A program made the position numbers and the translations under genes. A DNA stretch of 64,000 nucleotides, taken from positions 1-64,000 of the forward strand of contig JAHIRD010000159.1 of NCBI GenBank assembly GCA_018818835.1, written 5' to 3'. Below are positions 54,728-60,609 of the stretch, piece after piece; position 1 is the stretch's first letter; each line of letters opens with the position of its first letter. The DNA comes from Pseudomonadota bacterium. GTDB taxonomy: Bacteria > Desulfobacterota > Desulfobacteria > Desulfobacterales > Desulfolunaceae. The notes under the pieces are model-generated. The model was not told where the DNA came from. It worked only from the letters and a program-made list of their open reading frames with translations, and did no database searches.

Positions 54728-55948
54728 ATGAACGCATTGAATCTCAGTTTACATCCAGCCTTGCCTGACGAACGGTTCGGTGAAATAAAAGATATGGCCC
54801 AGGAAGTCATCATCGCCTCGGCAACGTTAAATGGCCGTGTTGCCAAAGAAACAGCCGCCACGTTGGGAGACAGACTCAGACTGCTGAACAGTTACCATTC
54901 CAATCTCATTGAAGGGCACAAAACATCCATCGTAGATATTGAGGCTGCTTTAAATAAAGAATTTTCATCGGATGATGATAAACGGTATTCTCAAGAGCTG
55001 TGTGCAGGCCATGTTTTAACAGAACGGGCTTTGATGCAAGAGGTCTTGGCAACCCCTCCTGACACCCTGTGCAGCAGTGATTATTTGTGCAAGATCCACA
55101 AAGCGTTTTATTCCCAATTACCCGAACACCATCTGTTCACCCATGGTCAGGGTGGCTTTACCACCTATTCTGTAAATCCGGGGGAAATAAGGGATACAAA
55201 TGTTTCACTTGATGAGGGTCATTCCATTCATGGACCAGACTCAAACGCGTTAAAAGATAAACTGAATGAATTCAGATATTTGTACGACCCGGCCAATTTT
55301 CACGGGGATGAGCGCCTGATTGCCGCTGCTGCAAGCCATCACCGCCTTTCCTGGCTGCATCCGTTCAGGGATGGTAATGGCAGGGTTGCACGACTGTTTT
55401 CCGGCCTCTATTTAGCCCGGATTGGAATCAACACGGGAAACTTGTGGTCTTTATCCAGGGGTTTTTCAAGAAAAAAACAATGGTATATGATTAATCTGCA
55501 ATCCGCTGACTTACCGGATGCCGCTGAAAAAGGATTTAACCAGGCTTATTTTGCGGATTATTGTATGTATTTCCTGGAAGTCTGCCTGGATCAGATCCGG
55601 TTTATGGATAAAATGCTTGGTCTCAATATGATCGACCCCAGAATCGATTGGTATATCCAAAGCCGTGACAAAGCCCGTGGAGCTTCGGACCCCATTGACC
55701 CAAGAGCAGCCAAGCTGCTAAAAGCATTGTTTTTTTTAGGTGAAATCCCAAGGGGAAAAGCCCAAACGTACATGGGGATGGAAAAACAAACGGATCGTAA
55801 TGCCAGGCGCATTGTCAGCCAATTATTAAAGGAAGGGCTTGTCACCTCTGATAGCCATCGCGCACCCTTAAAAATAGGATTCCCAACCCATGTTTTAAAA
55901 TACTACTTCCCTGATTTATTTGACCCGAATGTGGTGGGGACTATTTAG
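54728..55948 (+). CDS. Fic-domain AMP-transferase (class II)
   Basis: A 406-residue Fic protein. The active-site loop HPFRDGNGR (about 211) is complete, including the catalytic His. An N-terminal inhibitory helix of class II type is visible as SNLIEG (about 56-61), so the enzyme should be autoinhibited. A C-terminal winged-helix-like domain (RRIVSQLLKEGLVTSDSHRA) is common in this subgroup. Fic proteins transfer AMP to targets such as gyrase or GTPases. The ribosome site is weak. Its stop directly abuts the right 77-bp direct repeat, so the gene looks like cargo between repeats. Confidence 0.9.
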   Translation: MNALNLSLHPALPDERFGEIKDMAQEVIIASATLNGRVAKETAATLGDRLRLLNSYHSNLIEGHKTSIVDIEAALNKEFSSDDDKRYSQELCAGHVLTERALMQEVLATPPDTLCSSDYLCKIHKAFYSQLPEHHLFTHGQGGFTTYSVNPGEIRDTNVSLDEGHSIHGPDSNALKDKLNEFRYLYDPANFHGDERLIAAAASHHRLSWLHPFRDGNGRVARLFSGLYLARIGINTGNLWSLSRGFSRKKQWYMINLQSADLPDAAEKGFNQAYFADYCMYFLEVCLDQIRFMDKMLGLNMIDPRIDWYIQSRDKARGASDPIDPRAAKLLKALFFLGEIPRGKAQTYMGMEKQTDRNARRIVSQLLKEGLVTSDSHRAPLKIGFPTHVLKYYFPDLFDPNVVGTI

Positions 55949-58591: not shown

Positions 58592-58963
58592 CTATGAATT
58601 TTCTGGAGAGGTGACAACAGCCCAGACAGGTACCTGGCTGCCTTGGTGAATCAGGTGTAGGTATGGCGAGACGCCGGTCATAAAGGGGGGGCGATCCGCG
58701 TCAATGGTTTGGCGAAGCCCTCCCCCGGTTCCAAGAATAAGATAACGGGCCCGATGGGTCCAGTTCAGGGCTGGCTCCAGGTCAATGAAGGCCACAACAA
58801 CGGCTTCGTTGAAGCGCTGGGTTATCCCGGCCCAGGTCAACTCTTCCCCGGCCGGGATAATGCGTTGTTCCAGATAGGCGATGGCAACCTCCCTCTCCTG
58901 GGGGGTAAGGGAGGCGATCACATCACGGGCAAGATCGGTCCAGTTACATGTTTCGTCTGACAT
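58592..58963 (-). CDS. Small partner protein sharing a domain with the caspase-like protease
   Basis: A 123-residue protein I do not recognise as any named family. Its residues 58-77 (AFIDLEPALNWTHRARYLIL) closely match residues 58-78 of the caspase-like protein encoded 17 bp upstream (ALIFVDDEPLANWSHDCRYL), keeping D-x-EP-x2-NW-(S/T)H-x2-RYL. Both continue with a G-rich turn and PP(F/Y). The first 50 residues (LARDVIASLTPQEREVAIAYL) are helical and polar. The ribosome site is weak, so translation may be coupled to the upstream gene. It could be a substrate, inhibitor or adaptor of the protease. Confidence 0.75.
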   Translation of the reverse strand: MSDETCNWTDLARDVIASLTPQEREVAIAYLEQRIIPAGEELTWAGITQRFNEAVVVAFIDLEPALNWTHRARYLILGTGGGLRQTIDADRPPFMTGVSPYLHLIHQGSQVPVWAVVTSPENS

Positions 58964-58980
58964 GTGTCGTGGCTTTCGTT

Positions 58981-60369
58981 TTAATGCGATTCGGTTTCAC
59001 GTTCAGCTGCCCGGATGATCTGTCGGATCAATTTCTGGGCTTCTTTCTGTTCCGGTGGTTTGACAGCCAGAATATCATCCAATTCCGTGAGTCCGGGAAC
59101 AATTTTCGTTCTCATGATATGACGGTACTCCCTGGGATCATCCAGCCCATCAAACAGATGCCTCAGTTCTGCCAGCACAAAATCACGATAGACAAACAGA
59201 TAGCGCCATTTCTGATGCAAATGCTGATCTCCGGCATCGGTGCCATAGGCGGAATACACCGGGCTGTCATAGGGATCATGCACATCATCTGCGTAATAAA
59301 ACGCTTCACGGGTGGAAATTTTACCGCTGCTGTCGTAGTCGGGGTCGGACAAAAGGGCTGCGCCATAGGGATCGGCACTGGCAAAGGCGGCAATCCAGTC
59401 ACGAGCAAAGGGATCGAAATCCGGTCCACCGATGGAATTCTTGCCTTCCGTGCATGCAGCGGCAAAGGTTGTGCGGCTTGCCGTGCTGGACTCGATCACC
59501 ACGTCGTTAAACCCGCCGGAGTGGCATTGTTCCATCATGACGATCAAGTCAGCATACTGCGGAAGCTGGGCAATTTTTGCAGCAAAATCAGATGCCGTGT
59601 AATCGGGACCTGAATACGTGCAGATGTAGCTTTCCGTTCCATTGTGCCCCCCGTGGTTGTTTGTATGGATGAGGAGCAGGTCATCTTTCTTCAACTTGGT
59701 TTTCAGCGCATCAATGGCGTTTGCCAGAGCCGCCTTGGTCCCCGGGCCGTTGACGGTCATGGTATAGGCTGTGCCATCTCCGGGCCAGGAGGTTACAGGA
59801 TGAGGCCAGCCCGAGTAGTTGATCGTGCCGTCGAAATTGAGAACGGTAATTTTTGTATCGTCAAAATAAAACCGGTTCACAAGCTGCCTGTAGAGAAACT
59901 CCAGGTCGTTGGTGTGACGATTGTTGGACGCTCCGGAAAACAGGATCGCATAGCGGTTGCCTTTGCGCATCCTCCATGGAAAGACAATCTGCATTTCCGG
60001 CGTCCAAATTTTCCGAAGGGGATTCTGAGCCACGACGGGGAGGTGAAACGCCTTGAATGTCTCGGGCGGATTGACCAGGTAGGGTGGAAATCCGGCATTG
60101 ACCTCCTGATAAAGCTTTCCACTTTCCGCATCATGAAGAAGATACCGGCAATCATGTGACCAGTTGGCCAATGGCTCGTCGTCCACAAAAATAAGCGCGG
60201 TCTGCTTTTTCATGGAAATTTTCAGATGCCCCGCCTGAATGACACTTTTTGCCGGTTGAACGTCTTCAAGAACATAGAGATTGGTTGTTGCCCTCCGTTT
60301 TGCGGACAACCGCATGAAAGCACTGCCCTTAATAGCACTCATGATTTGTTTGTTGATGAGTTTAGCCAT
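58981..60369 (-). CDS. Caspase-like/C13-type clan CD cysteine protease
   Basis: A 462-residue protein. Residues about 45-115 form a shared domain (see the neighbouring small gene), followed by a caspase-fold peptidase (about 138-385). The catalytic His is in HTNNHGGHNG (H239) and the Cys in EQCHSGGF (C282), the clan CD His-Gly and Cys arrangement seen in legumain-type and caspase-like families. An EF-hand-like stretch DPDYDSSGKISTREAF follows. The C-terminus (about 400-462) is helical. ATG 60369 with AAGGAG is chosen over 33 extra upstream codons. No signal peptide is obvious. Specificity and biological role unknown; bacterial relatives act in defence or programmed death. Confidence 0.82.
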   Translation of the reverse strand: MAKLINKQIMSAIKGSAFMRLSAKRRATTNLYVLEDVQPAKSVIQAGHLKISMKKQTALIFVDDEPLANWSHDCRYLLHDAESGKLYQEVNAGFPPYLVNPPETFKAFHLPVVAQNPLRKIWTPEMQIVFPWRMRKGNRYAILFSGASNNRHTNDLEFLYRQLVNRFYFDDTKITVLNFDGTINYSGWPHPVTSWPGDGTAYTMTVNGPGTKAALANAIDALKTKLKKDDLLLIHTNNHGGHNGTESYICTYSGPDYTASDFAAKIAQLPQYADLIVMMEQCHSGGFNDVVIESSTASRTTFAAACTEGKNSIGGPDFDPFARDWIAAFASADPYGAALLSDPDYDSSGKISTREAFYYADDVHDPYDSPVYSAYGTDAGDQHLHQKWRYLFVYRDFVLAELRHLFDGLDDPREYRHIMRTKIVPGLTELDDILAVKPPEQKEAQKLIRQIIRAAERETESH

Positions 60370-60609
60370 GGGTTGACTCCTTTGATTTTGTCGCCAATAC
60401 GTGCCAGGTAACCAGAGGGCGACGTTCTCCAGAAACCCAACATGGTTTTTGTATCGAAGCCATATCAAAAAGGATTCTGGTTCAACATCAGGCTCGTCCG
60501 GGTTTCAAACCGCAACACCTTTGAATGCCGAGGATTATTAATGAGGACCGACCTGTAATTAAGGCCAAAAGGCGTTTTTCAGATCGCTTCTAATTTCATT
60601 GGAGACCCA
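60370..60609. promoter_or_regulatory. Upstream region of the caspase-like operon
   Basis: About 240 bases that should hold the promoter of the leftward protease-partner operon. No clear -35/-10 pair or operator is recognised. Confidence 0.35.

Follow-up and report, generated by a model that had tools for sequence, protein, structure and literature searches.

In Streptococcus, the gene directly behind that of the cysteine protease SpeB encodes Spi, a propeptide-like inhibitor; SpeB is a secreted C10 enzyme with a papain-like fold, and we take the Spi/SpeB pair to be unrelated in sequence to the genes described here. PepSY domains are found in protease propeptides, and cystatin presents an Asn loop to the S1 pocket of legumain. 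In Plasmodium, the stand-alone propeptide-like protein SUB1-ProM is encoded beside subtilase genes and is a potent and selective inhibitor of SUB1 (PMC6993865). In eukaryotic legumain a C-terminal death-domain-like module (LSAM/activation peptide) restrains the enzyme, and residues Arg44 and His45 shape the S1 pocket for Asn (PMC4357240). No paper on prokaryotic legumains or on their control was found in a literature search.

The two genes considered here lie in the window, the whole 64,000-nucleotide stretch of DNA that was analysed, and their features are listed in Table 1. Open reading frames, strand, coordinates and the gap between the genes all agreed with an initial annotation of the same DNA. 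The ATG at 60369 was accepted as the right start of the larger gene because CAAAGGAG precedes it, making an alternative TTG open reading frame (495 aa) unnecessary. A scan for promoters and terminators gave no site above chance.

Table 1. Coordinates of the features in the window, split loci, and gene order at the loci carrying a free domain.
Feature	Position or locus	Strand	Remarks
C13 (legumain-type) cysteine peptidase gene	58981..60369	minus	462 aa; Pfam, profile and Foldseek
CAAAGGAG, Shine-Dalgarno-like	60377..60384	minus	upstream of ATG at 60369; direct reading
Peptidase N-terminal shared domain, residues 1-115	60025..60369	minus	BLASTP, alignment of 21 copies
Peptidase signature loop D63-x2-P66-x2-N69-W-x-H72	60154..60183	minus	alignment
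Arg151-His152, counterpart of legumain Arg44-His45 (S1 Asn/Asp pocket)	59914..59919	minus	aligned with plant legumain NYRHQAD
Catalytic His239 (HTNNHGGH)	59653..59655	minus	invariant, 9 aligned relatives
Catalytic Cys282 (MEQCHSGG)	59524..59526	minus	invariant, 9 aligned relatives
C-terminal three-helix tail, residues 391-461	58987..59199	minus	AF2 secondary structure, pLDDT 74-91
Free-standing shared-domain gene	58592..58963	minus	123 aa; 17 bp downstream of peptidase gene
Free-domain signature loop D61-x2-P64-x2-N67-W-T-H70	58754..58783	minus	between two strands; alignment and AF2
Split locus (G905)	L087:4984-7309		1-bp gap
Split locus (G1278)	L116:4807-5942		GTGA overlap; 231-aa peptidase and 147-aa partner
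Free domain downstream of peptidase gene	L004, L006, L011, L105, window
Free domain upstream of peptidase gene	L009, L010, L038, L044, L087, L116
Free domain convergent with peptidase gene	L008

The large protein was assigned to the C13 family on the basis of a match to Pfam PF01650 (28.6 bits, curated cut-off 22.8, E=1.3e-6), a profile match to the plant legumain 5obt in the PDB (E 2e-6) and a Foldseek search with its AF2 model, which returned legumains and metacaspases with a legumain in first place (E 1.9e-6). The top fold match of the model was 4n6o, which we take to be the cystatin E/M-legumain complex. The C13 hallmarks are present, with the catalytic His within NHG and the Cys within E-x-C. 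The clan CD assignment made in the initial annotation was therefore right, and its term 'caspase-like' was too loose, the enzyme being of the legumain type and not a C14 caspase. His239 and Cys282, named there, are invariant in the aligned relatives. The equivalent of the Arg151-His152 pair was present in 12/12 peptidases tabulated, and catalytic and S1 residues were intact at every complete pair of the window type; judged by these S1 residues, the peptidase is probably Asn/Asp-specific at P1. Its sequence has no hydrophobic N-terminus and no signal peptide, from which we infer a cytoplasmic location. The N-terminal domain and the peptidase are connected by a linker of ~20-30 residues, and in an alignment of peptidase relatives no Asn/Asp site for cleavage was conserved in this linker, so that the N-terminal domain is at most a candidate for a removable propeptide. 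The protease model from AF2 was of moderate quality (pLDDT 66), with poor active-site loops and linker; residues 94-126 of the linker were mostly below a pLDDT of 50, so that the placement of the N-terminal domain on the active site is unreliable. In some relatives the C-terminal three-helix tail is swapped for other modules.

The small protein and the N-terminal domain of the peptidase were aligned by BLASTP over 78 residues with 27% identity (E=2e-9), and the Smith-Waterman score of the two window copies was 92, against 25.5 +/- 4.2 for shuffled sequences (maximum 54, 0/5000 as high). A hidden Markov model (HMM) built from N-terminal domains alone matched the small protein at 1.8e-12, selected only this protein and the protease itself among the 443 open reading frames of the window, and recovered 11/11 free copies tested with E values of 1.7e-9 or better. 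These two places are the only ones in the whole genome at which the domain occurs. The region common to the protease and its neighbour, described earlier as a shared motif, is thus borne out, and by sequence comparison the similarity is one that spans the whole ~110-aa domain. Within it, the D, P, N and H of the signature loop were invariant in all 21 domain copies aligned. The AF2 model of the small protein (pLDDT 88, pTM 0.82) consists of two helices followed by six to seven strands. Its predicted elements (H8-17, H21-26, E28-36, E41-44, E47-50, E55-61, E72-78, E83-89) correspond one to one to those predicted for the N-terminal domain (H7-18, H23-26, E30-34, E43-46, E49-52, E57-63, E74-80, E86-91); the possibility of different folds, raised in the initial annotation, is answered by the match between these predicted secondary structures.

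The shared domain was present in none of the libraries searched (Pfam, NCBIfam and PADLOC), and comparison with Pfam gave nothing at E<=10, PepSY included; the PepSY loci available from relatives (n=3) did not suffice for a meaningful comparison of profiles. A match of the small protein to the NCBIfam model 'aroma_sacti' (E 0.14, below the cut-off) was rejected as chance level, as were glucanase and ribosomal matches. Foldseek with the small-protein model gave no match at E<0.6. The best hits of a fold search were 4fr9 (Z 4.2) and 2lra (Z 3.9), values under 8 and far too weak for assignment to PepSY or BLIP. We take 4fr9 to be a BLIP-like protein and 2lra to be Rv0603, presumably inhibitor/PepSY-type folds.

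The free domain adjoins a C13-type peptidase gene at 12 loci, comprising the window, nine further pairs of a free domain with a domain-peptidase, and two split loci. The small gene is therefore a recurrent neighbour of the protease, and the initial annotation's alternative, that its homologues are never adjacent, does not apply. The nine further pairs come from Desulfobacterota, Acidobacteriota, Verrucomicrobiota, Pseudomonadota, unclassified bacteria and one archaeal plasmid. Across the 12 loci the gaps between the genes are -32 to +158 bp (some start codons were chosen by us). Peptidase relatives were found in Desulfobacteraceae, Electrothrix, Planctomycetota, Acidobacteria, Verrucomicrobia, Betaproteobacteria, unclassified bacteria, the archaeal plasmid and the scanned genomes. 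The only plasmid carrying relatives was pMETHO01 of Methanomethylovorans hollandica, on which a free-domain gene absent from the PLSDB gene table (L044:7462-7836, minus strand) lies just upstream of the gene for an 804-aa C13 peptidase; the pair therefore occurs in Archaea. Two loci are exceptions and have no free copy. At L005 a fused peptidase is present with its protease intact. The C13 gene of Candidatus Electrothrix (L007:6001-7373) is broken: its C-terminal portion lies in a different reading frame and is interrupted by stops. The joint loss of peptidase and partner at L007 would fit a regulator role (n=1).

Four architectures of the domain were distinguished. In the first, a secreted chain carries one domain ahead of the peptidase (e.g. 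L042, L089 and L090). In the second, a secreted chain carries tandem domains before one peptidase (L039, L040 and L041, with internal repeat scores of 75, 81 and 52, respectively, and 0/1000 shuffles as high), so that a protease may also have both domains within its own chain. The third is the window type, a non-secreted domain-peptidase lacking a hydrophobic N-terminus and accompanied by a free domain. In the fourth, found at the split loci, the peptidase starts at the catalytic domain and is translationally coupled to a free domain; as the domain is carried only by the coupled neighbour gene, it can serve the peptidase in trans. The secreted C13 paralogue at L042:7465-10359, which has a sorting-domain-like C-terminal tail in addition to the domain, belongs to the genome of L006, where the operon form is present as well.

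In a tree of 26 domains, in which some branches are long and the position of L087 is unsure, all twelve N-terminal domains formed one clade (100/99) with the free copies outside it, and the same subgroups were mirrored on the fused and free sides (window/L004/L006, L008/L009/L010, L038/L044 and L011/L105). Separate clades with mirrored subgroups argue for co-inheritance of the two genes, and the tree is consistent with a single old duplication, after which both genes were inherited jointly, with transfers from phylum to phylum among the events. Few genomes carry the domain, which was found in 6/198 genomes of its own phylum and in 2/249, 2/195, 4/80 and 4/199 genomes of the other sets (~1-5% of genomes scanned), and none of the seven further genomes scanned from this family had it. 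The GC content of the cassette is 50-53%, compared with about 35-47% in the flanks. This patchy spread and GC contrast indicate that the cassette moved horizontally as a unit and probably works alone; it looks self-sufficient.

Because the pairing persists across several bacterial phyla and in one archaeon, the most likely role of the small protein is that of a dedicated regulator, probably an inhibitor, of the adjacent protease. A free homologue of a protease N-terminal domain, encoded alongside the protease as are SUB1-ProM and Spi, favours a trans-acting role. The large protein would be a cytoplasmic C13 peptidase with an N-terminal propeptide-like domain, and the small protein an additional, unattached copy derived from the old duplication. 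The latter would act in trans on the catalytic domain of the same peptidase, binding the enzyme and keeping its activity in check, and might also aid folding, as stand-alone propeptide-like proteins do elsewhere. That the two genes form such a self-contained protease/regulator cassette, with the small protein as an inhibitor in trans and possibly a folding helper, is a proposal to which we would give an even chance. The weak matches of the predicted fold to 4fr9 and 2lra agree with an inhibitor and are no proof of membership. Against a regulator stand L005, which has no free copy, and L108, where a distant copy of the domain occurs without any peptidase.

The main rival to inhibition is that the free domain is an obligate subunit, which would pair homotypically with the N-terminal domain and act as an activator or scaffold of an active or stable enzyme. 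Chains of the form D1-D2-peptidase do exist (L039, L040 and L041), the operonic coupling is tight and the genes are co-inherited, and human legumain loses stability when its regulatory C domain is absent (PMC4357240). The first domain (D1) of the tandem chains is, however, without the signature loop, whereas free copies retain it; the split loci have one domain only, and the L005 protease is intact although the free copy is absent. An obligate subunit is on balance unlikely. The same loop bears on a substrate reading, in which the protease would cut the small protein as a decoy or pro-effector recognised via the shared domain. An invariant Asn in an exposed loop, next to an enzyme with a legumain-like S1 pocket encoded by the adjacent gene, is what a substrate might offer. 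This Asn is, however, equally conserved in the protease's own domain, inside a compact fold, and the free protein amounts to little beyond the domain and a short non-conserved tail, with no effector segment to release; we therefore regard cleavage of the small protein as improbable. The initial annotation had likened the locus to bacterial caspase-based defence modules, a reading that a legumain-type enzyme without defence context does not support. PADLOC had no model for either protein and showed no consistent defence partner at the loci, and the immediate neighbours compared across loci were unrelated to one another, serving housekeeping or transport, and included no defence gene that recurred. 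In the window they encode a citrate-type transporter and a CNNM protein; elsewhere they encode a phosphate ABC transporter, GNAT, an esterase-like protein and sigma-54 activators. A toxin-antitoxin or anti-phage system, in which the legumain would kill or arrest the cell and the small protein would be an antidote released on infection, would suit a sparse, autonomous and horizontally moving cassette; given the lack of defence models and neighbours, and of peptidase relatives in the phages and viral contigs searched, it is the least probable of these readings.

Two neighbouring genes were noted separately. A Fic-domain protein encoded at 54728-55948 of the window (plus strand; PADLOC SoFic match, E 2e-27) is the nearest possible defence gene, ~3 kb away and on the opposite strand. 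At L105:4149-5324 (minus strand), a sigma-54 activator with an RtcR/PspF-type PADLOC match (E 5e-134) adjoins the pair.

Under inhibition by the small protein, the signature loop offers a lead to a mechanism. The loop residue was Asn in all copies fused to or beside C13-type peptidases that were aligned or read, and was a different one in each of five copies that are distant (L106 Q, L107 R, L108 R, L117 S and L118 D). It is as if a reactive residue tracked the specificity of the protease; few copies underlie this pattern, and the role of the residue may be purely structural. Were the loop residue to enter S1, as the Asn of cystatin does in legumain, it would be expected to vary with the specificity of the enzyme. 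In its widest form the proposal would be that legumain-type proteases are under the control of an unnamed prokaryotic inhibitor or propeptide domain, acting in cis, in tandem or in trans, with the invariant loop Asn entering S1 as a P1-like residue, which is speculative and decidedly unlikely as a whole. The distant copies of L106, L107, L117 and L118 are in secreted proteins, where they precede clan CD-like modules that are not C13-like. The distant copy at L108:5014-5982 (minus strand) has an ARFAHP loop and no peptidase in the same protein or beside it.

The analysis names a domain missing from current family libraries. If the proposed regulation is true, then the fused, tandem, fused-plus-free and split forms involve one regulatory domain, stand-alone propeptide-like inhibitors become known for another protease family, and the conserved pair provides a small, bench-ready system for how cytoplasmic legumains stay silent without the eukaryotic C-terminal module. 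The domain as modelled would have, like BLIP-like and PepSY proteins, a helix-loop-helix followed by an antiparallel sheet, yet with a Z of only about 4 and no Pfam match. Like bacterial caspase-based defence modules, the locus sets a partner gene beside that of a clan CD protease; unlike them, it encodes a C13 enzyme with no sensor, gasdermin, CARF, TIR or NTPase partner. As in the cystatin E/M-legumain complex, a protein (here a candidate) would inhibit a C13 enzyme; no sequence relation between the shared domain and cystatin was seen, and cystatin, unlike the small protein, is neither encoded with nor fused to its target. The window pair shares with SUB1-ProM and SUB1 a free homologue of the protease N-terminal domain at a conserved position beside the protease gene; SUB1 differs in being a eukaryotic subtilase (a serine protease) with its own propeptide fold, and inhibition is proven for SUB1-ProM and proposed by analogy for the window. 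The window peptidase has in common with eukaryotic legumain the C13 family, the catalytic dyad and the S1 Arg-His pair, and differs from it in its regulatory candidate, which is an unrelated N-terminal alpha/beta domain together with a free copy in trans.
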